This document shows, one piece after another, positions 36,523 to 55,010 of a stretch of DNA of 64,000 nucleotides. The first letter of the stretch is position 1. Every line of letters starts with the position of its first letter. A program made the position numbers and the translations under genes. Below the pieces are notes generated by a model. It was not told the DNA's origin, did no database searches, and saw only the letters and a program-made list of their open reading frames with translations. Source of the DNA: Cliona cf. orientalis. Its lineage: Eukaryota; Porifera; Demospongiae; Clionaida; Clionaidae. The DNA lies in the NCBI GenBank assembly GCA_963930775.1, contig OZ005689.1, forward strand, positions 1,674,001 through 1,738,000, read 5' to 3'.

Positions 36523-39500
36523 CTATTTTGCTATGCTCCATTTACACAAGCAACTCATCCCAGTACTGCTAGCTAGCTAGCTAGACTGTCTACTTACTAT
36601 AATGATGTGTCCGACTGTTTCCCAGCTGCTGATAGAGCTGCTTGACCAGTCTCGCCAATGAAGTTCTTGTGGATACTATGAATGAGAAAAAGGTGAATTA
36701 TACTTCATCACACTGGCATGCAGGGTAAAGATATCTCTGATGATGTACAATAATAGAACATCATCTATTAGTGTACTCATAATATTATTATGTAGCACAC
36801 TATATGGGCATTGATCCAGCTGTTCACAGGCAAAAGTACATAGCAATGTAAGCTTGTATCCTGATCTTATGTTTCTCAATTGACTGGAAGCTGGGACCCT
36901 GTGCCAATCTGACACACAGTCTTAACCATGATTAACTGGCCACCGGAAGTCCACCAGAAGCCTGCATGCAAACTATAATATTATTTCCTACATCCTATTT
37001 GATGGACAATGGTGCCAATAACAACATATTCTATATAGTGACAAGCATTCTCACCACTATCATAATTCTTCCATATAGCTACATGTACCGTGAACCAACA
37101 CTACTAGTATGCTGTTAGTGCCTATAAGATACCGTATTTCCTCGAAATCTCGCCGCACCTCGAAATCCCGCCGCCCTCGAAATGTCGCCGCATCTATCTG
37201 CCAACTCGTCCCAATAAATGCTGCCCTCAAAATCTCGCCGCATGGTAAGGGGTCGACAGCAATTTCCGTATGCGCACGGACATTTTACGTGCATACAACT
37301 AGGCTTATTATTGAAGCTGTGTACGTGTGTGCGTATTGATGTCTGTAGACGCCGCCCTCGAAATCTAGCCGCCCTCGAATTGTTGCCGCACCAAACGGAG
37401 CCTTGAAATAAAATCTCGCCACGGCGAGATTTCGAGGAAATATGGTAAGTTAGCTTACTACAAACACTGAAGGTTTGTCATTGTCTTCACTGCAGCTGAT
37501 ATTGCCTTGGCTCCATCATCACCAATGGAGTTGTCATCGAGGCTACATATGAAATGGAAATGTAACAAATGCGCACAATCACATTGACTTAGCTAGTATA
37601 TAGATAATAATTACATGCATAATATTATAAAGGTTCCAATTTTTTAACACATGAAGAGAATCAATTTAATTTATGTGGGGGTGCGGCAAAGAGTCCTACT
37701 TATTACTGGTACAATTGTGGCAGAACAACAAAATTAACCACGTTGTGCTGCATGGGCCTTAATCTGAGCCTGATATGAGCCAAATTATAAGTCATCTATT
37801 ACTGATTTTTACTTTTTGACAGGGATCGATATAAGAGCTACTCCTCTACACAAAGTCTACTTCATAGATTCTAGAGCACTTGACTTATAATTGTACTAAG
37901 TCATGGCTTAAAGAAGTCAGCCTTGTAGCTACATATTGATCATCCATGATTCAGAGCTGTTGTAGCAATATTATAGCTAGTTACAGTTTGACATAAGTGT
38001 GACAGCCGCGTAGAAACAAAATCACAAGGAACTTCTTTTGTTGAATTTGTGTACTAATGACCTTTGAAAACACTTGTCTTGTTCTTTTCCATCAAAACAA
38101 CAGCTATATTGTTCACGTTCAAGCATTTTATCAGTTAAGCCATCACTGACTTAGTGGGTGGAACCACGTACTTGCATTAGTATACGAACTTCTGTGTGCA
38201 ACACACATAGCTTTACTATAAAGTTTTAGTATAGCTATGTTGGTGATTGGGTAGCTATATTTTGGTAGAGACTTCAATTTTGCAGGAGCGGGCAAGAGTG
38301 CCCATTGATACCGTGCGCATGCGCAGATGGAAGTGGTTGCAGTGGCCACACCCCTCAAAGCAAGCAGCTCCAACTAAGTGTGCAATGGCGACGTTCTCGC
38401 TCTGTTCGAACGTTGCTACCGGGCTACTGACAGGTATGAACAGACCTCGCCTCTTGCTTCGCTCGAGGTTCGGTGGCTAGTGCCAGCGCCTGCTTAGCAG
38501 GCCTTTCGAAACGTGCGGCACTTTCGCGCCGATCGTTCGACATTGTGTCCCTAGCTGTAGCTATGGCCCGAGGCATTAAGGCCACTCTTCTTTGTGCACA
38601 CGGCCCTACAGTTCTGACCAATCCTGAGCCTTGTAGTGCGGCTCATTCATAGCAACCGGGTGCATCCAAGACGCGTAATATCCATGCCCCTCATGTAATG
38701 ACACGGACTATATAAGACTAATGACCGTCTGAAAAATATTTTTCGTTGTATATAGTATAATTATTATTATTATACTTGCAAGACAAAATATGAGGTTAGC
38801 TTACCGTAATAGCTGAAGATTTGTCATTGTTGTCATTGCTTTTGATATTGCCGTGGCTCCTTCATCACCAATGCAGTTGCCCCAAAGACTGTGAATGGAA
38901 AAGCACGTGAATGACGTTAGCTTCACCACGCTTGTTAGTGGGAATTTCAGTTCTGTTTGAGAATGAACATGAGTACATTAGCTAGCTATAGTGGACAGGG
39001 GTGCTCTATGCCATGTGAGATATGACCATTCTCTGCAATGTGCTTGGTAAAAGCTAGATATGCTTGTCCACTAATACATTGCCGCAAGTGTCTCCTTCCC
39101 AAGTGGTGGAGATGTATAGTGATGCACAGAGTGTCACATACTAAAGCTGGAGAACTAAAGCAACATATAGCTAAATTAAATTATTGTCAAAGTTCTGGAT
39201 TTAGCAGAGTAAAAACTCACACGCTTTGCAAGCTGAGCCAGTGCGAAGTGCACATCTCTACGTCCATGCATTTACCATGATAACACATGCACATGCATAG
39301 CTAGATAGTTTAACTCACTGTAATCCCTGAATAGTAGTCATTGACTTTAAGGCCTCTGAGAGAGTTATAGCACCTTCATGGCCTATAGAGTTACCACCGA
39401 GGCTGTGAATGGAAACAATTACTTAATTGTGGGGCCCATAGCCAACTGAGCAATTCAATGCATACATGCATGGGCAAGGTTGATAATGCTACTAGCTTAG

Positions 39501-42500: not shown

Positions 42501-45500
42501 CCCACTCAGTCCAACCTAACATTCTGTGCTTATGTTATTTCAAACAATTCTTCCATGTGGCCTAATGATATATTTACATGATATTATTTGTGCTTGTTTA
42601 TGCATACATAGAACTAGAACTTTCTGAGCACATAACATTGTCAGTATTTACCAAAAACATCTGCTTCATTGTTAGTCATATGATTAGTCAGTGCCGTATT
42701 CAGAGCCCTTGAACTTGCTTATGATACATACTCAGGGGTGTAGGAAGCAAAATTTGGTTGGTCAGACATAATGCCCCCCCCCCCCCCCCCCCCAAAAGAA
42801 AACCAGTTCCACTTAGAGGGGAATTCCTTGCCTGTGTAGCGGTTTACATTGCTACCAGGCAATAGGTCAAAGTTCATTCGCATTACTACCGTGCTTGTAT
42901 TATTAAAAGTGAGCACTATTCAGAACTTCAAGCAGAGTACTAGCTAAATTTCACACTAATACAGCAGGTAAGACTTTCATTTTCAATTGTAACATGAAGG
43001 CAGGCTCAAACATTGGTCCGGCGGCTGCCGGGTCTGCCGGACCTGTTCCTACGCCCCTGATACTACGTTAATAATAGTATTTGTTTACCTCAATTCCCGT
43101 AGATTTGTCATTGTCTTCATGGGGATTGAAATGCTCACAGCCCCTTCACTGCTGATTAAGTTTTTTGCAAGGCTACATAATTAAATTTATTATAAGCAAA
43201 ATTTATAGAATCTGACTTGGAAAGTCTAATATATATAGTTGAGTAATCTCATGAGTTGTAAACAAAACTCAATTAATATGTACGAGTGTAAATCGGACCC
43301 TCACTGCTGGTGGACAAGAGTAGATTAGGATAAGAGTGTTGAACTCACATAGAAAAGCCTGGAGACCAATCCCATAATTATAGCACTGTAAGCAAAATGA
43401 TGGGTAATAAGTATCACCAGCTGTGTACTTTAACTACTAGTAAGTGTTATGTAAACTCAGTCGCATATAGTATACTTCTGTTACTCTAGTCCGATACTGA
43501 AGTAGCTGCGTCACGACTGCATGGTTGCCACTTGTGTAAAGTGCCATGTACGGATTTCATTTAGCTACACGTCTGTGATGTCACTCCATTCTATACAGTT
43601 TTAACACTCCTATCCAAATCTACTCTTGCAGATGGACACCACCCTTACTACGGCAGGCAGACGATGAGAAGCTACTAATTGATTTTGAGTGGCCTAACCG
43701 TGCACGCATATTGCAGTATAGCTCTCTACCTCCACTCCGTGGGAATGATAAAGAAGTATATGTACTATGGCATAAAGCACCATATCACACAGACACAACT
43801 AGTAACCAGACACTACCACAATGGTCACTATGTTAACTTGCATTCAAATTAACCCAAGCTCATTGACAAGCTCTTTCCTACACATAGTATGCAGGCAGCT
43901 ACTAGGCATACTCAACCTACTTAAGACTCCGGAGTCCACTGTAATCTCCATCCTGTTTGAATAGTGTCTTGCAGCCATCATCACCGATATTACAGTGTTC
44001 AAGGTTTACTTCAAAGTCTTTGCCGTAGTTCAATACATAACCAACTGATAGGCAATCAGCTGGGTCAAGGTTGATCCAACGCAGATCCAGCTTTTGGTTG
44101 AGATCAGTAACTACTAACTGACAGAGTTTCTTATCCCGTGCCTCATAAAGACAGTGCAGTAGGTTAACTAGCAGAGGTTGTGATTCATGACCAAAGTTGA
44201 CACCAGTAGACTTTTGATGGATGTCGGGGGTGAACTCCACAATGTTTCGATGTTGAGTGCATAGTTTTGCTGCGTTAGCAACTATTTCTTTGATTCCAGG
44301 AGTCTTCAATTTTGTTTTGGCAGCATAAAACCGGAAAACAGCACTAAAGCGAGGACGCCCAAAGAGTTTAGTAAACTGCTCCACTTGTTGTTCATCATCT
44401 AGCTGAGTAGCCATGTGAACAGCTGCCAAAAGCTCCTGTATGGACAGGTGGAGGAAATTGTAGGAACAAGACAGCATTCCATACTTAGCAAAGCTCTCCA
44501 CTCCCTGAAGTAGACCAAGAGTGTTAAAACCATCATCAAGTTTAAATACTATTGTCTCTTCCATCACCCCTTCATAAGCTGTCATACAAATTTGTTTAAA
44601 GGGAGCTTCTATGGTCTGTGGAAGTTCTTCCAGTGACTCTATTACTGGAACTCTTTCTTTCGTAGTTTTCTTCAAGTGGCGATATATGCAATTACAGATA
44701 AGCGCAGAGAAGATGTCGAATTGTGTCTTTGGTAGTTCATTCTCACATTTAAATAGATGGACAAGGATGCTGGCATTCAAAGGAAGGTAACAGCTTCCTG
44801 CCACTGCAGGATTTTCTTGGATTTTCTGCTGCAGTATCAAAACCTTGCTGTTGTCGTTGTCCAAGCAGCCAGCAAAGTATTGTTGAAGTTCATCCTTTGT
44901 GAATCCCAAGATTTCAATTCGAGAGTTGACAAAGTTGAGAAGGCTCATAGAAGCTATGGGTCTAGATGTAACGATAAGTGAGCATTTGTGGAGTTTACTA
45001 GAGTTAAGAATATCTGTAATGATTAAACGGCCAGCTGCACTTTGTGATAGCTCATCCCACCCATCAAAAATTAAGAGGATACCCTGCCCATCACAAGCAC
45101 ACAATGCCTTAGCCACCTCTTCTCCCATGGAATCATCCCGTCGTGGTAGCATATCCGATAAGGTCTTTACATTTTGAACTGTTGGTTCTCGCAGTCGAAC
45201 CAGTATTACATGACTGTATTCTTGAAATAGCTTGCCTTCACCCCACTGATGGCAAATGTGTTGTGAGAGGGTACTTTTCCCACATCCAGGACCACCTTCA
45301 ATAAGTACTTTTATTTGATGACCTTTTTCCACCCCACTGAAGATGTTCTCAAGTTCAACTGGTACTTTCTTCCTAAGAATATCATCCACTTTGCCAGTAA
45401 TGGTACTTTGTATAAAGTCATCATCAAATTTTCTTTTCTCTACTTTTTCTGCTTTGATCATGGCCAATCGAAACACCTTATTTGTGACGGGGGGAGGCCA

Positions 45501-48500
45501 ATGATCTTTATCTTGGTAGCAGGCTTGTGTTTTTGCTTTGTATAGAGACATCAGATATTCAGTATATTCTCTGAATATACTATCATCAGTAGTAGCAGAC
45601 TTGCTTTCATGTACTATAGGGAAAACACAAACCCATGCAGATTTTTTTATAATAATAATTCAGGTGGGTGATTATTATAGCTATTGACTGCTTAGTCTGC
45701 AGTATATATATTTTTTATAATCTGAGCAGATTTGAGAATAGGATCCACTTCATCCACAATAAAACTTTCAATACAGACGGGTCGTTCATCTGGGAAGCTA
45801 AAGCTATGGTAACACATTTAACAATATGATTATCCTTTCCTCACAATGTAGTGAAATTTTAACGCTAAAAATGCCTGTCTTTACCTTGAACGACCACTTT
45901 GAAAGTGTCCTCTATTGATCTATATACCTCCATATGCACCGACTACTATTATAGTGAATAACTTCAGCGAGCATTAAAGTTAGGTGAATCAGCTCTCAGT
46001 TGGTATTGCCAAAATTAAAAGTATGTGACCTGAATTCTTAGTGACATAGGCACACTACATTAATCTAAATTGGCGACATTTTAATTTGATGATCTTCACC
46101 AAATTCGCCAAATCACCAATATTGCAAATTAAAAATCTCACCAATGTTTCCCGTTATGCAGCATACCTGAAAATGTTATTAAATCGGTGTGCATAGACGA
46201 ATGAGACCATTGATTATAATATGCAGTTATAATTTTATAACCGATATTATATTCATAGTAACTTTATACTAGTTAGTACTATGAATGCTTGTACTTAACT
46301 GCTGGTGGCTAATACTGTTATGTAATGTACCTGAATAGTACTATGATCTCAAGCTCCGTGGGTGCCTCTGAGATTGCAAGGACAGTTAATGCATGCATGC
46401 CTTCCTGGACTTCAGCACTGGTGATCCGCAGGATCAGCAGGCCCCTAATGTTAGAGGCTTAGGACTATTCTACTCTACCTGGACCCTTTTTTCTATTTAC
46501 CTTAAGATGACAAACTGCAATTTGGGTTTGAACAATGTGTTGTGAGTGCACTACTACAGGGTCGACAAAGTCCAATGTATTAAAGCTAACACATGTAGGT
46601 TAATAATCCCGGTTAGTGGGTACAATGTCATGTCTTTGGGCCAATGTACTAAAAATAATATCAAACATTAATTAATACCCACATAAAATAGTCACCTTAA
46701 GGTAATACTGTAGCTCCACAAGAGAGCAAACCACTGTGTAACTACATAATATTATACTGCACCTTGTAGTAGCGTAATGTGCCAATTACCGACAGGTACC
46801 AACTATCGGAAATACGGATATCGATTATCGACATAGGGCCTTAGTATAGGCAGTGGGCGTGGCGCGTTTAATAATAACTTCGCGTGGTCGATCGCGACTC
46901 GCTTCTCTGCTTCAGGCTGGACTTTTGAAGGTAAGTTTTGCTCCATTTGTGATAAGATGACCCTCACAGTGTCTTACTTTCTCAATACAGGGGCAAAGAC
47001 GCGATGGTGCTGTTCCCGAGGCGCTTCTGCCAAATTTGAAAAAACGATAAAGATCGAACAAGCTCACCTATGAACATGAAATTGTCTCAGTAGTTAGAGT
47101 TCATGATTATGCACCTGCTAGTATTTTTTATATAATTTTCTTACCCTTGGATTGCATGCACTGTGATGACAAAGCTCCAAGTGACGATAATTGATTGTAT
47201 TGAAAGTATACGGTGTGCCGATAATACGTACCGACTGTTGATAACTGGCATTCACAATTATAAGCTAAAATTGTCATTGCAGACGTATTTTGATCGGCAG
47301 CCCCCTGATACTTTAGGTACTTGTAGCCCTGGCGACGCCCTACCTGTTGGTCCAAGTTCGAAGTTCAAGCGATGTTCCTAAGCAACAGCACATGCGGGAG
47401 AAAACCGTATGTCGATAATTGGCACCTTACGCTATCATATCCTCCCAAAAATAAGCCCCCTTTGAAAATAAGCCCCTTCCCCTCTTTGACCTTCAAGTTC
47501 TTGCACAGGTATGTTTGCCTCGATTATAAGCCCCCCTCCCACCAAGTAGACTGCACATATACACGCGCGCGAGCACGTACGTATGTAACCCCACCCTTCA
47601 ATTGACTATGAGTACAAAGATTGATGGCGGCTTTCAGAAAAGCCTGTTTTGAAATCATTATGTTATGATGGCACTTCTAGCTTGGCGAAGACACTTGTGA
47701 GCCGGTCAAGATGCTTTTACTTTCCTCTAAAGACGTAGACACAAGTCCTTTTCCCACCGCCGATCCTCGTGTTGCCATCTACTTGACAGGTCATCTCGCT
47801 GCCGTTCTTTTACAGCAAACTCTGGATATTTCCCGCGGTACGTGACCAACGATGGTGGCTAAGGGGGGGGGCTTATATTTGAGGGAAAGTGCATATTCGA
47901 AAAAAAGCCTCCTCCCCAGTCTAGGTCATGTCTGCTGCTGAAAAAGGGGAGCTTATTTTCGGGAGGATACGGTACATGTAAAGCAATTTTGCTAGGCACC
48001 CCATTTGCAATGATCTTGCTAGGCTAGATACACACTCTTTCAAAATTAATGATTTAGCAGGAAACCTTAGGGGAAGGGCAGACAATCCATAATAGGCTAG
48101 TGGGCCCTCTTGCATGAGCCTATGGTACACACATCCACGCTAAATATTATAGTAGAGTAGTATGATGACTTGTCACCTGCTGCACTTAAGATATATTCAG
48201 ACTTGAGAACAGCAATTACAGCAGCACGAGTTGGCCTGGCCTTGGAATTTCTGAGCCACCCAGAGATCAGATCATTGAGGCAACCTTCAACCTTTTTGTT
48301 GTTTGCATCAATAGCATCCAGTGTGCCAGTGTCGATACCAAGCTCTGTGCCAATTAATTTCCATCTTGCACGATGATCCCATGCCAGATCAATAATTTCC
48401 CTTGTATTCTCAGGTGTGAGGAGCACTGCATGAACAATGTAGTGGTGTTACATCACATAAATTTAATAACCATCTCTTCATTTCACTCACCATCCTCTAT

Positions 48501-50138
48501 TTTTGTTTCTCTCTTACTAGGTTGTGATGGTTGTGTAGCTCCATCAGTATCATCAACTGTATCGTTTATAATGTGAAAGAGTTTACATACCCTCTAATAG
48601 TAGGCATGTAGCTATTCATGCTTACAGGGATACTGTAATTCTCCATGAAATTGTTTACATAATAATTTTTCATCTTAAGAAAGGCTGGTGGTCTAACTCT
48701 AGAAAGGATCAATACACACTGCAAACATGAGCTCAATGTTGATTTTCTACCTGTTGCAGGGTGGTTTGAGGCTATTTCCTTAGCAAGTTCATGACTATTT
48801 CCACCAGCTTTTCTGTCGACTGCCTCCACCAGCATCCTCCAGGTAGGGGGGCCAAACCTCTCTGCATTATACTTTTTCTGAAGCCAAAATTCTAATGTGT
48901 CACTGAGGGCTTGCTCAGCATCAGATTCGTCAGGGTATGCTTGTTGGATTAATTTTAAGTCTGCTGTTTTTAACCTCAGGGATCTACCAAGCGCAAAATA
49001 AACCAACTTAAGTGGTTGAACTGCTTCCAAAATATCTATCAAATCATCTTCACCTGTAAAAATAATTAATACTGATAATATTAAGAAAATAATATATAAT
49101 ATAAAAAATTATGGTGACTAACATAATATCTGTGTAGCATCAACACTGCCATAGTCAAGATCTGCATACAGTAAAACAAAATGGATTCTAATATGAATAC
49201 ATGCATCATTGCTCTTTACCAGGTCCTGGATTTTCTTCAATGTCACCAGATAGAAGCAGTAGAGAAGCAATGATAGAAGCAGTGACTGACAGGGTAATGC
49301 CCAGTATAGTATTCACTAGGTAGAGTATCCTCAAATCCTTTCTTCTCTTTGCCAATAAACTTTCATTTTGGTCCAATTTGAGATCAAAGACTTCCACTTG
49401 TTTATTGATCAATACCCGCAGGAGAGCAATAATTCTCTCCATGTCTTGAGCATGTATCACTACATTGTCAAGTGCATAAATTCAGTAATATCATCTAAAT
49501 TATCATTCAATAGCATTAGCTACATTTTCTAGCAACTAAACTAAAATTAATTAATGTCAACAATGATGATACTTTTATTTTTTTTAGTCAGTATTCACCT
49601 GCAGGGACAAGCCATGGAATTAAATTTATTGCAGGGTACATCATCTTCACAACGAGGAACATTATATAAAGCAGAAAGCTAGCATTAATAGGGGAATTAT
49701 AACTCTCTCCACAAATGACTGAGTGCCACTGAGAACATTTGAGAGAGAGATCAGTCAAAATCTTGAGAACTGATGTGAGAATTAGAGCCAATGTTAACAT
49801 GAAGACTTTCTGGTGTAATAAACCATACAAATCTTCAAACCAACCTACAACAAAAGTACACAATGCATTAAATAATTATCCATTACATTGTTTCTCTAGA
49901 TCCACTAACTTAATAGCTGACGATGATGTCTAGTTGCTATTACACCTCTTACTCCAGTGTTGATTCCAATCAGCATTATCAGCAAAATTATCATGGTCAC
50001 ACCTCGATTCAACGTTAACTCTTTATTAATGACTCTTGCTCCATGTCTGATGAATGACTTGATCTTATGTGGTCTACCCAGGACACACCATGAAGAACCA
50101 ATGCGGGCCCTCCACTCAGAAATACTCCAATATGGCAT
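36523..50138 (-). CDS. NLR receptor: 4 TM helices - 2A-like motif - Death - Death - NACHT - LRR (1,189 aa model)
   Basis: Exons on the minus strand: 50138-49946, 49844-49599, 49459-49220, 49161-49123, 49053-48751, 48556-48491, 48425-48177, 45613-43921, 43172-43089, 41617-41534, 39402-39319, 38888-38805, 37542-37459, 36675-36598, 36565-36523. Junctions are phase 1 up to NACHT and phase 2 after it; the sum is 3,570 nt, a multiple of 3 ending in TAG. Domains: helices in residues 1-217, GDIEENPGP at 218-226, Death about 245-335, Death about 363-445, NACHT from about 550 (GGPGCGKST, LLIFDGWDELS), LRRs from about 985. Sponge NLRs with Death/CARD-NACHT-LRR are known; the membrane-2A front is unusual. 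Start ATG 50138 is the first ATG in an exon that also has an acceptor at 50144, so an upstream exon is possible. The last exon is the least certain. Confidence 0.82.
36598..43172 (-). CDS. Six LRR exons of the NLR gene
   Basis: Five exons of exactly 84 nt (43172-43089, 41617-41534, 39402-39319, 38888-38805, 37542-37459) and one of 78 nt (36675-36598), all phase 2-2. Each encodes one 28-residue ribonuclease-inhibitor-type repeat, for example LWGNCIGDEGATAISKAM + TTMTNLQLL and LGGNSIGHEGAITLSEAL. The 78-nt repeat is degenerate (IHKNFIGETGQAAL). One exon per repeat allows repeat number to change by exon loss or gain. Confidence 0.85.
37131..37446. repeat. MITE ending 12 bp from an LRR exon
   Basis: ACCGTATTTCCTCGAAATCT at the left and AGATTTCGAGGAAATATGGT at the right; the interior repeats CCGCCCTCGAAATCTCGCCG. 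The right end lies 12 bp from the 3' edge (37459) of an LRR exon, next to its donor site. Confidence 0.75.
39568..39593. repeat. Poly-G tract
   Basis: 26 consecutive G in an NLR intron; length may be unreliable in sequencing. Similar runs are C at about 42774-42793 and G at 50563-50583. Confidence 0.9.
39638..41510. mobile_element. 1.87-kb TIR element with tandem arrays
   Basis: Ends CACTGTAAAAATAAACGTGT and TTGTTTTTACAGTG, TA on both sides. Inside are: a ~50-bp array with GTATGTTAAACCAGCAC (39740-39865); a ~180-bp direct duplication (40113-40452, ATAACAATGCCATGCCAGCA ... CACCTCGGGTAAGTGG); a ~41-bp array with TACATGCTTAGTGGGTTAT (41220-41350); and one possible minus-strand exon (40817 down to a GTGAGA donor near 40640, MNTAAASQKKRLKLAFNCKD). 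No transposase recognised. In an LRR intron of the NLR gene. Confidence 0.7.
42733..43059. repeat. MITE with CAGGGGTGTAGGAA ends
   Basis: CAGGGGTGTAGGAA at the left and TTCCTACGCCCCTG at the right. ATACT occurs directly outside both ends, suggesting a 5-bp target duplication. Contains the C run at about 42774. Confidence 0.75.
43306..43647. repeat. Foldback repeat in NLR intron
   Basis: GGTGGACAAGAGTAGATTAG ... AAGAGTGTT is mirrored by AACACTCCTATCCAAATCTA ... GGACACCACCC. No coding sequence in 43173-43920. Confidence 0.6.
43921..45613 (-). CDS. NACHT NTPase exon
   Basis: Single 1,693-nt exon. Begins with a linker (REYTEYLMSLYKAK ... HWPPP ... FRLAMI), then Walker A EGGPGCGKSTLSQHICHQWG, Walker B ILLIFDGWDELSQ, sensor-like SLIVTSRPIAS, winged-helix and helical-domain sequence (YGMLSCSYNFLHLSIQELLA) and a first leucine-rich repeat (VNLEHCNIGDDGCKTLF). 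Intact, no stops. Confidence 0.92.
46030..46167. repeat. Dispersed ~130-bp repeat, copy 2
   Basis: Same series of blocks as 19938-20070, in the NLR intron 45614-48176. 45614-46029 and 46168-46770 contain nothing I recognise. Confidence 0.6.
46771..47433. mobile_element. TIR element, AGCGTAATGTGCCAATTA ends
   Basis: Left AGCGTAATGTGCCAATTACC; right end reversed AGCGTAAGGTGCCAATTATC. The interior has a GTAAGT after a CTGGACTTTTGAAG block but no long frame. Directly abuts the next MITE. The target-site duplication is unclear. Confidence 0.65.
47438..47969. mobile_element. MITE, TATCCTCCCAAAAATAAGC ends
   Basis: Left TATCCTCCCAAAAATAAGCC, right GGGAGCTTATTTTCGGGAGGATA-type mirror with TAAGCCCC blocks repeated in both arms. 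Confidence 0.7.
48177..48425 (-). CDS. Second Death domain exon
   Basis: 83 codons, phase 1-1: LTPENTREIIDLAWDHRARW, KLIGTELGIDTGTLDAID, DLISGWLR, TRAAVIAVLKS. Typical Death domain as seen in many sponge proteins. It is joined to the first by a short polar linker exon (48556-48491). Confidence 0.8.
48751..49053 (-). CDS. First Death-fold domain exon
   Basis: 101 codons, phase 1-1. ILEAVQPLKLVYFALGRSLR, then DLKLIQQAYPDESDAEQALS and LEFWLQKKYN ... TWRMLVEAV: the six-helix Death pattern with the helix-5 Trp. The linker exon before it (49161-49123) is acidic (DLDYGSVDATQIL). Confidence 0.7.
49220..50138 (-). CDS. N-terminal four-helix membrane part of the NLR gene, exons 1-3
   Basis: Exon 1 (MPYWSISEWRARIGSSWC...) is basic and Trp-rich and ends in helix TMIILLIMLIGINTGV. 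Exon 2 holds KVFMLTLALILTSVLKIL and INASFLLYIMFLVV, separated by a Cys/Trp loop. Exon 3 starts with an amphipathic segment (MERIIALLRVLINKQVEVFD) and ends in ILYLVNTILGITLSVTASII followed directly by the 2A-like motif. If the motif works, this ~225-residue tetraspan product is released. It resembles no named family that I know. Confidence 0.72.
49221..49247 (-). other. 2A-like ribosome-skipping motif
   Basis: Encodes GDIEENPGP after SLLLLS, fitting the D(V/I)ExNPG|P consensus exactly. It lies at the very end of exon 3, and donor GTAAAG follows one base later. Known 2A sequences stop peptide-bond formation between the final Gly and Pro without ending translation. Confidence 0.85.
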
Positions 50139-53332: not shown

Positions 53333-53736
53333 CAGTCCAACCTCGATTATCCGAACCTCGATTATCCGAACCCTCGATTATCCGAACTCGAGATCCGAAG
53401 AAAATGCAGGGTCAAAGTACACATTGTGACCACGTGACCCAATTGCGCATGCGCAGTAAACCGACGTCGCGCGAGAACCAGCTGCTGCGCTGCTATTAAA
53501 TCTAGTTCTAACACTCAAAGAAATAAAAGAAACGCAAGGTAAGTGTTCTATCAATCGAGGATGAGATTAAAATCGTCGAAATGCTCGATAAGTCTGTCAT
53601 ATGTACGTTTTTACATGCATGATCGACTTTGTGGGTGTGGCTTGGGCGTGGTCATCGTTATCCGAACTCCTTGCTTATCCGAACGGTTCGAGATTTCCCC
53701 TTGGCCAAAGGGGTTTGGATAATCGAGGTTGGACTG
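53333..53736. mobile_element. pogo/Tigger-type MITE
   Basis: CAGTCCAACCTCGATTATCC at the left, GGATAATCGAGGTTGGACTG at the right, TA at both sides (53331-53332 and 53737-53738). CTCGATTATCCGAA repeats three times at the left. The interior still reads IEDEIKIVEMLDKS (about 53556-53594), like the helix-turn-helix start of a pogo-type transposase, so it is an internal deletion derivative. Confidence 0.85.
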
Positions 53737-53952
53737 TAGTACTTGTGCATCTCTACACTGTACATATACACGTTACTACGGTAACCTTTTAATTAACCCA
53801 CATTGTAAAGATCATGAATGGTTTGATAGCTGAATGAACAATCTAACTCAAACATACATAATAGTTAAGGTACAATGTACATGTGGGCTACAAAAATCAA
53901 ATTTAGTAGCCAGTGGGCTCACCATTTAACTCTATCACGCTAGGAATTACTT

Positions 53953-55010
53953 TTAAAGATGATTTATGTACCTATTACATTTCTCAACTGTGACAGTTTC
54001 CCAAAACTTGCTTATCCCATCGACAAGCTCATCTTTGGTTCTGGGTTTGACTTCCTTACGTATAAATTCCTTCAATTCATGCCATAAATTCTCTATTGGA
54101 TTCATGTCTGGGAATCTTCCACCAATTTACACTATTGTGATCCAGGAAATCTCTTCCATGCAGTGATGTATGCTTTGGATGGTTGTCTTGCATGAAACGG
54201 TGGCTGAATGGGTACACTTGCTGGATGAATGGGAGTAGAGTCCTCTCTAAGATGCTGGTGTACAAAAATCTCTCTATGATGCCCTCGAAGATACAAATCT
54301 GAGTTCCACCTCATCTACTGATGCCAGCCCACACCTGAACTTTCACAGGATGTTTGGCCCTATACGTGAAACCAACAGATACATGTATGTATCATGTGTA
54401 GTAAAGCCAATAGTAGATTGTAGTTACATGTACCTGTATCTTTCATATGTACACATACACACATGTATTGACTTATCGAAGCTTTGGTTTGGGCCGTTGT
54501 CCAAGCTTGCGACAACAGAATCTTCTGTGATTCTGTAGCTGTACCGTGCATTCATCAGTCCAAATTACATCTTCAAAATCATCATTGGCATGTTGGATGG
54601 CCCACTCCCGGCGCTTCACCTTGTTGGCATCACAGATCAAGTGACAGTACGCACTTCCCCTGAAAAGTCCAACCGAGAGAAGTGCGGCATCTGAGGACAG
54701 TTCGCAGGGAGACATCATAGCGACTGTCATTAATCATTCTGTGCAACTGGTAAGCCGTAGTCTCATCATCACTTTGCATCTGCCGCTCCACTAGCTCCTT
54801 TATTTCAGCAGTTATCTTGGAGATCCACCCTGACCCTGGTCTTCATCTGATGCTTCCTGTTGTGTGGTATACCTTCAGAAACTTAGCAATCCCATATCTT
54901 GACACGCTTATCCCATCACTTTCACACAGTAGCTTTGCAATAGTGTAAGGCTTGTATCCCTGAGAGTGGTATCGAAGGATCCATAGCTTCGTGTAAGAGC
55001 TGTATACCAT
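53953..55010 (-). pseudogene. Tc1/mariner transposase, decayed
   Basis: From ATG 55010: helix-turn-helix (YHSQGYKPYTIAKLLCE), then REWAIQHANDDFEDVIWTDE with the first catalytic Asp, FMQDNHPKHTS with the second Asp, and PDMNPIENLWHELKEFI with the third acidic region; end TAA 53953. The blocks lie in different frames, with stops between, so it is non-functional. It lies within the TIR pair 50874-55676. Confidence 0.85.

Follow-up and report, generated by a model that had tools for sequence, protein, structure and literature searches.

The stretch of DNA analysed here, referred to as the window, comprises 64,000 nucleotides of the sponge Cliona cf. orientalis (assembly GCA_963930775.1, contig OZ005689.1, positions 1,674,001 to 1,738,000). 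Its minus strand carries a gene that appears to encode a hydrophobic leader followed by an NLR-type immune receptor with Death-like domains and a NACHT domain, and a 2A-like (StopGo) motif lies at the border between the two parts. We assembled the gene model from splice signals. It contains the following features, given in window coordinates and in the order of transcription:

49946..50138, minus strand: exon A (leader), MPYWSISEWRARIGSSWCVLGRP..., a basic N-terminus followed by hydrophobic stretch 1; start codon and donor are predicted
49599..49844, minus strand: exon B (leader), hydrophobic stretches 2 and 3
49220..49459, minus strand: exon C (leader), basic loop, hydrophobic helix 4, 2A motif and phase-1 donor
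49221..49247, minus strand: 2A/StopGo core GDIEENPG/P, with the octapeptide DIEENPGP at 49221-49244
48751..49053, minus strand: exon D, first of two Death-like domains, next after the 2A site (Pfam and mixed-family profile)
48491..48556, minus strand: exon E, a short linker with an open phase-1 frame from acceptor to donor
48177..48425, minus strand: exon F, second Death-like domain (mixed-family profile; paralogue matches after exon D)
43921..45613, minus strand: exon G, NACHT NTPase domain and start of the leucine-rich repeat (LRR) region (Pfam NACHT)
37467..39404, minus strand: stretch with three short LRR-like exon matches (39404-39321, 38890-38795 and 37544-37467; tblastn), predicted to belong to the gene

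An earlier reading of the letters alone, subsequently referred to as the sequence-only reading, had noticed GDIEENPGP at 49221..49247 and placed it right behind a membrane helix, at the end of an exon and before the Death part of an NLR gene. Each of these points was confirmed. The 27 bases GGTGACATTGAAGAAAATCCAGGACCT, read on the minus strand from 49247 to 49221, encode GDIEENPGP. Directly 3' of the motif, G/GTAAAG forms a phase-1 donor, and the acceptor of the Death-like exon (...TTTTACAG/GT) has the matching phase, so that the frame continues into EDDLIDILEAV.... All junctions from exon A to exon G are in phase 1 in the gene model, there is no stop codon ahead of the exon C donor, and the reading frame is open upstream of the motif. 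In the model protein, the G of NPG has number 225, in line with the proposed leader of about 225 residues, and the predicted gap in the peptide chain falls between G225 and P226. Up to the end of exon G the model protein has 996 residues, 771 of them 3' of the 2A site; a receptor of about 960 residues, as the sequence-only reading had it, is thus plausible, with the assembled part reaching the end of the NACHT exon.

Four hydrophobic stretches (Kyte-Doolittle, 19-residue windows above 1.6) were found in exons A to C, within residues 40-67, 73-99, 119-144 and 191-220. The last one extends right up to SGDIEENPGP. Since the leader opens with a strongly basic segment, its N-terminus probably lies in the cytosol. 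For 30 exon C sequences, AlphaFold2 predicted a helix at 40-79 followed by coil, with moderate confidence (mean predicted local distance difference test score, pLDDT, 66.8). We found no convincing Pfam domain in the leader, and no relatives in searches of viral contigs or of bacterial and archaeal genome contigs. Among proteins of NLR length, none of 2781 candidates matched the leader at E <= 0.001, probably because the database holds mostly single-exon open reading frames (ORFs) for such genomes.

On the receptor side, exon G matches the Pfam NACHT family with E=1.5e-22 (80.7 bits, cut-off 26.7). Exon D alone gives a Pfam Death match under the cut-off (E=0.03) and exon F alone gives no Pfam match. 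A profile of exon D together with its paralogues and the Death exons of other 2A genes finds the FADD death domain in PDB (E=2.5e-4), as does a mixed-family profile of exon F (E=7.8e-6). The end of the NACHT exon encodes a partial LRR (weak Pfam LRR_6 match, E=0.086), and the three short matches further downstream were obtained by tblastn with a generic LRR query (E 4e-5 to 7e-4). They have splice-like edges by eye; the match at 38890 extends beyond its donor into a stop. From the Death-Death-NACHT-LRR gene of the sequence-only reading, both Death-like exons and the NACHT domain therefore stand, and the LRRs are a probable part of the receptor gene, their joining to it being predicted.

The motif itself is not a chance match. 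We scanned 216.8 Mb in 149 contigs of the genome and used each pattern in reverse as a control. GD[V/I]EENPGP was found at 28 sites, D[V/I]ExNPGP at 152 and [D/N][V/I]ExNPGP at 160 (108 + 52), against 0 sites for every reversed pattern. On these counts we reject a chance origin, which had been called unlikely before.

The window gene belongs to a large family. Its exon A (MPYWSIxEWRARIGSSW...) matches 46 places in the genome, the window included, and none of the 46 contains an internal stop. A 2A motif follows on the same strand within 7.6 kb in 45 of these loci, and within 3.4 kb in 43 of the 46. These distances were measured to 47 motif places picked near the exon A loci from the genome pattern scans, one of which gave 100 of 108 places. 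Exon C matches at least 29 places. We set 33 sequences side by side, namely the window and 32 loci (designated by L numbers), and found exon A in 31 of them and an exon D match in 30. Exon A is absent from the stretch in L002 and in L007, the latter having a short hydrophobic leader instead. A phase-1 GGT lies at most six codons after the last 2A motif in all 33, and the exon D match begins directly behind an in-phase AG in 28 of 30 cases; in the other two (L043 and L056), an in-phase AG is seen by eye slightly upstream. Among the loci that reach far enough, L006, L007, L039 and L044 have both the second Death exon and NACHT downstream, and L043 has NACHT. The window gene is a divergent member of the family: its full-length exon A matches are 55–66% identical, its longer exon C matches about 33–46%.

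This arrangement bears on the possibility that exons A to C are a small membrane-protein gene of their own that happens to lie upstream of an NLR, an outcome that the sequence-only reading had named as fatal to its proposal. Exon A does have its own ATG, as such a gene would. However, chance neighbourhood does not account for a 2A exon behind nearly every exon A locus, for the phase-1 GGT in all aligned loci with exon D following in phase, or for a frame without a stop before the donor. We regard a separate gene as extremely unlikely and reject it because of the 2A motif after 45 of 46 exon A copies and the phase-1 continuity.

To look at selection, we calculated the ratio of non-synonymous to synonymous substitution rates (dN/dS) among 14 paralogues, restricted to pairs with dS above 0.1. 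It was about 0.22 for exon A (59 of 91 pairs), about 0.41 for exon C (86 of 91) and 0.33 for exon D (78 of 91), the last value being inflated by one out-of-frame row (L004) that was kept in. No ratio is given for the window itself, because the synonymous differences between it and its paralogues are near saturation. For exons A and C of the leader, the values point to purifying selection. Across the nine motif codons, the window differs from each of the 14 paralogues by 5–7 synonymous changes; non-synonymous changes number 0–1 in 11 paralogues, 2 in L044 and about 3.8 in L061 and L062. The first 28 or so residues keep a high level of conservation even in copies whose exon A is otherwise less conserved, and for this reason the leader probably is a protein acting in its own right. 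Perhaps, and here we speculate, it serves the receptor as a membrane partner or as a regulator.

We also searched for homologues without making use of the motif. A profile of eight exon C sequences from which the motif had been removed gave 243 matches among 5.8 billion proteins, and D[V/I]ExNPGP stood at the expected place in 119 of the best 120 of them. Among these 119 motifs, x was E in 105, R in 7, K in 4, Q in 2 and S in 1, and the second position was V in 107 and I in 12, so that the variation appears to fall only where 2A tolerates it. The matches listed include the window's own exon (P0234) and 14 sequences that do not differ from other copies in the same genome. A further 53 of the 120 listed matches are less than 85% identical to every genome copy compared, and all 53 carry the motif. 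The matches probably include other genomes or haplotypes, since those listed outnumber the 29 exon C places found. In a corresponding search with NACHT, NPGP occurred in none of the best 120 of 1601 homologues. By their length these are mostly NACHT exons alone, and for this reason we count them neither against the leader nor in its favor.

These results have to be weighed against an inactive motif, in which case the gene would make one membrane-bound NLR whose N-terminus spans the membrane several times. Such proteins have been proposed before: sea-anemone NLRs with 3–5 N-terminal transmembrane domains (PMC5094078) and sponge NLRs with transmembrane domains (PMC12909245) were both interpreted as membrane-bound, and in a sea cucumber the membrane location of an NLR was demonstrated with antibodies (PMC13133943). 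The window gene resembles the former two groups in combining transmembrane stretches with NACHT, and the anemone proteins also in that the stretches are several and N-terminal. They were taken as one protein, whereas the 2A motif in the window predicts two; the available main text of PMC12909245 does not mention 2A-like sequences. An inactive motif would not explain the restriction of variation to V/I and x, with G, D, E and NPGP retained, or the presence of the same octapeptide at the exon end of leaders that look unrelated by eye. We consider it very unlikely.

Instead, we think it very probable that the motif is a working 2A/StopGo element and that one mRNA gives rise to two products, a multi-helix membrane protein of 225 residues and a separate NLR starting with proline. 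The paralogues keep the order, strand and intron phase of leader and receptor exons, the motif recurs in nearly all of the best motif-blind matches, and two of the leader exons appear to be under purifying selection; all of this supports the two products that the sequence-only reading had envisaged. What the sequence itself shows is the anatomy, the continuous frame and the conservation of leader and motif in a large family. In 2A elements, the Gly-Pro bond is kept from forming by the nascent chain inside the exit tunnel; the ribosome lets go of the upstream product and goes on translating. Applied to the window gene, the nascent helix and the 2A tail would prevent this bond when the ribosome has reached NPG. 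The helix abutting the motif would still be in the tunnel at that moment, and could first serve as the upstream element of 2A and later as the last membrane segment of the leader. The leader would be released and inserted into the membrane, and the same ribosome would resume at Pro226 to make a separate NLR, most likely cytosolic, whose Death domain is free at the N-terminus. On a minor share of the ribosomes, skipping may fail and yield a fused, membrane-directed NLR, or translation may stop. In this way, the leader would be made in step with the receptor without being kept attached to it.

The sequence upstream of the core fits a known active class. In the window, LLLLSG precedes it, as in the L-rich upstream class of StopGo sequences described in PMC12846837 (Li et al. 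2026), where the core is expanded to (D/G/C/N)(V/I)ExNPGP, N included. The likeness to the viral L-rich StopGo thus comprises the core, the G before D and the LLLLSG-type hexapeptide, which lends further support to two products. Four viral motifs, L-rich motif 6 among them, were about 93% to nearly 100% active in the assays of that paper. They sit in viral polyproteins, in contrast to the motif in the window, which is part of a host-type gene with introns; the available text calls cellular use of 2A never or only rare.

Such use is documented in sea-urchin NLRs, as the sequence-only reading had stated. About 35% of them (85 of 241) carry a 2A-like sequence at or near the N-terminus, 14 of 87 NCBI entries have a 26-residue form of 2A, and one of these NLR sequences was estimated to be about 80% active in vitro (PMC4981915, Roulston et al. 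2016). The SpNLR2A proteins described there share with the window gene a 2A-like motif just after an N-terminal hydrophobic stretch and the Death-NACHT-LRR architecture, of which the LRRs are probable in the window gene, and SpNLR2A6 is active. Their leader is a signal sequence of 26 residues, whereas that of the window gene has about 225 residues, several helices, exons of its own and a conserved sequence. Its 2A ends at residue 225–226, behind four hydrophobic stretches, and the gene thus falls outside the arrangement of about 26 residues that defines SpNLR2A. The sponge genome also differs in that it sometimes has two 2As and has related tails before ankyrin and GTPase-like Death genes (see below).

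A dual-targeting switch has been proposed for sea-urchin NLR 2As and demonstrated with reporters of SpNLR2A6 (PMC4981915). In the window gene, skipping would then be deliberately partial, giving a cytosolic NLR when it occurs and a membrane-anchored or lumen-facing NLR when it does not, in a ratio set by the motif. The last helix of the leader looks like a signal anchor, and natural variants with N in place of D, as in 5 of the 128 gene-like sites, could tune the ratio. The side on which this helix ends would decide the destination of the unskipped NLR. On the other hand, a long conserved leader, with its low dN/dS in exon A (about 0.22), far exceeds a signal of 26 residues, and the motifs assayed in PMC12846837 skip at about 93% or more and leave little fused product. 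We therefore regard such a switch as a possibility, though rather an unlikely one.

Several observations weigh against the proposal of two products. One of the best 120 motif-blind matches, P0159, lacks the motif; it is 97% identical to L050 and diverges just before it. At the 46th exon A locus (L153) the nearest 2A is 16 kb off, beyond another exon A. Exon B has weak matches at the expected place in L003, L004 and L044 and none in most other loci, and the constraint on exon C is laxer than that on exon A. The exon A donor (49946/49945), being predicted, is the weakest boundary of the gene model. The topology of the leader is ambiguous: with the basic AKRRKDLR in front of it, the last helix may have its end on the outside, and the four hydrophobic stretches may correspond to fewer than four membrane spans. 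Finally, chimeric 2A sequences are often inactive (PMC12846837).

Natural departures from the usual arrangement can be seen in several copies. L153 (C4:11324300-11327300; C numbers designate contigs) has exon A and a Death-like exon with no 2A seen between them, and it may be a natural copy that has lost the 2A exon. In L056 the helix before the 2A motif is tandemly repeated (DVALSVAASVILSLLL, three copies), resulting in a longer hydrophobic stretch. In L004 the exon D match changes frame near residue 50, leaving the second half out of frame, which suggests a frameshifted or misassembled copy.

We then turned to the 2A sites of the whole genome. We read 147 of the 160 sites, dropping rows for one site seen in two loci, and classed them by the sequence after the motif: 128 were gene-like, 13 Helitron-like and 6 belonged to PHD-finger non-LTR (non-long-terminal-repeat) elements. 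The label gene-like was given by exclusion, and a receptor downstream was seen only in the sample that was read far enough. For donor-like sites within six codons after the motif, phase 1 occurred in 125 of the 128 gene-like sites, and the other phases in 13 and 1. The pattern [LIMFV]2-x-[SAC]G stands right before the octapeptide in 127 of the 128, with x mostly L (61), E (29), S (17) or T (10). The five copies with N for D in the core are L067, L124, L144 and L145 (contig C2, 1.33-1.41 Mb) as well as L044 (NVEENPGP); among the matches listed, NIELNPGP occurs in 5 of 6 copies on C2.

Several leader families that are unrelated by eye share only the 2A tail, and the genes behind them are of different kinds. 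NACHT follows different leaders in L039 and L044 (match to exon G of the window), L069 (Pfam E=3e-19) and L068 (by eye). A TRADD-N-like domain is found in L040 (Pfam E=4.5e-5, 23.6 bits with a cut-off of 23.7) and, by eye, in L065, L066, L067 and L071. Ankyrin repeats are present in L067 (Pfam E=2.9e-74) and by eye in L066 and L071, and L070 has a weak match to a Roc-like GTPase (Pfam Roc E=0.013, under the cut-off). Death-like exons of other 2A genes give Pfam matches just under the cut-off in L040 and L069, match the Death exons of the window in L009, L010, L011 and L017, and were recognized by eye in L066 (no Pfam match), L067 and L070-L072. The loci L040, L065, L066, L067, L070, L071 and L072 combine a 2A leader with a Death-like gene and show no NACHT in the stretch read. 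The window gene is thus one of a large set, and the use of 2A extends beyond NLRs. One leader type (FDVAQAR...RLHAYHSV) is found before a gene of the ankyrin kind (L071) as well as one of the GTPase kind (L070), which suggests that phase-1 modules have been exchanged between genes.

Two paralogues on contig C10, L041 and L042, have tandem motifs. In each, DVERNPGP is followed by DVEMNPGP or DVETNPGP, both motifs lie behind a hydrophobic stretch, and a Death exon comes next. The approximate positions are:

L041, 1226 and 1596: first and second 2A motif
L042, 1172 and 1376, reverse strand: first and second 2A motif

Three products are predicted for these genes, provided that both motifs work and share one spliced frame.

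It is possible that 2A is no rarity in this sponge but a routine, genome-wide means of building genes, with more than 120 gene-like sites, exchangeable phase-1 modules made of a membrane or signal leader plus 2A, at least three kinds of Death receptor (NACHT-LRR, TRADD-N-like/ankyrin and Roc-like GTPase) and some double 2As that give three products. Each receptor would be produced together with its leader, a conserved membrane protein, and at least some "membrane-bound" NLRs of early animals would really be two proteins. We judge the chances of this wider proposal to be about even.

The sites in elements raise the question whether the leader was captured from a mobile element, Helitron-like or non-LTR, and is now decaying. 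It is said that 2A occurs in non-LTR retrotransposons (work attributed to Odon et al., 2013), and the same motif is found in the PHD-finger elements of the present genome (L029, L036, L105, L131, L137 and L141); those are mobile, in contrast to the window gene, a host receptor. The 13 Helitron-like and 6 PHD-finger sites do share the tail with the gene-like ones. Yet a decaying leader would not be expected to leave exon A open in all 46 places or dN/dS below 0.5 in exons A and C, and the window's exon C matches the element loci over no more than the 2A tail, the one exception being a longer but weak match (55 residues, 38%) to the non-LTR locus L036. We consider capture followed by decay quite unlikely and reject it on the open copies of exon A and the dN/dS values; an old origin of the leader from an element is possible.

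Among the papers listed in our literature searches we found no multi-helix 2A leader, no double 2A in an NLR, no 2A in a sponge NLR, no 2A in a Helitron and none on Death genes other than NLRs; the survey by Rao et al. 2025 (Cell Rep. 44, 115822) may well list such cases. A sponge paper that joins the terms 2a-like and NLR (PMC5890393) uses 2a-like, in its available text, as part of protein names. Already known is 2A in animal NLRs, from the sea urchin; what stands out here is that the membrane leader is conserved, that the sites are so numerous and that 2A also precedes Death-domain genes of other kinds. If the motif is active, the reading of multi-helix NLRs of early animals would change, since the anatomy of the window gene predicts a receptor that is free and a membrane partner that is released, instead of a membrane-bound receptor. 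That a single genome has 128 gene-like sites among the 147 read, with natural variants such as N for D, double 2As and a copy without 2A, provides material for studying how skipping is tuned.

Apart from this family, a large cluster of NACHT exons lies at C6:8.97-9.78 Mb (103 of 490 candidates scored). Two 2A sites are nearby among the matches listed (9127282 and 9294534). The first of them is L072, which has a Death-like exon and no NACHT within 5 kb. Most NLRs of this cluster seem to be without a 2A leader.

Contig C1 carries a repeated element between 18.0 and 34.1 Mb (L023, L026-L028, L030-L035, L037 and L038) with a hydrophobic leader and DIEVNPGP (DIELNPGP in L030). Helix-turn-helix-like repeats follow the 2A motif (Pfam HTH_28 in L031), together with a further stretch that seems to resemble a Helitron Rep protein. 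The Helitron label was not confirmed by Pfam: searches of the Helitron-like class with Pfam gave DUF6570 (E=0.011) and helix-turn-helix matches only.

The window also contains traces of transposons outside the exons described. Matching inverted ends (cagtccaacctcgattatccgaa ... ttggataatcgaggttggactg) bound a stretch at about 53334-53745, presumably a remnant of a pogo/Tigger-type DNA transposon. Broken ORFs on the minus strand at 54077-54842 resemble, as we assume, a Tc1/mariner transposase.

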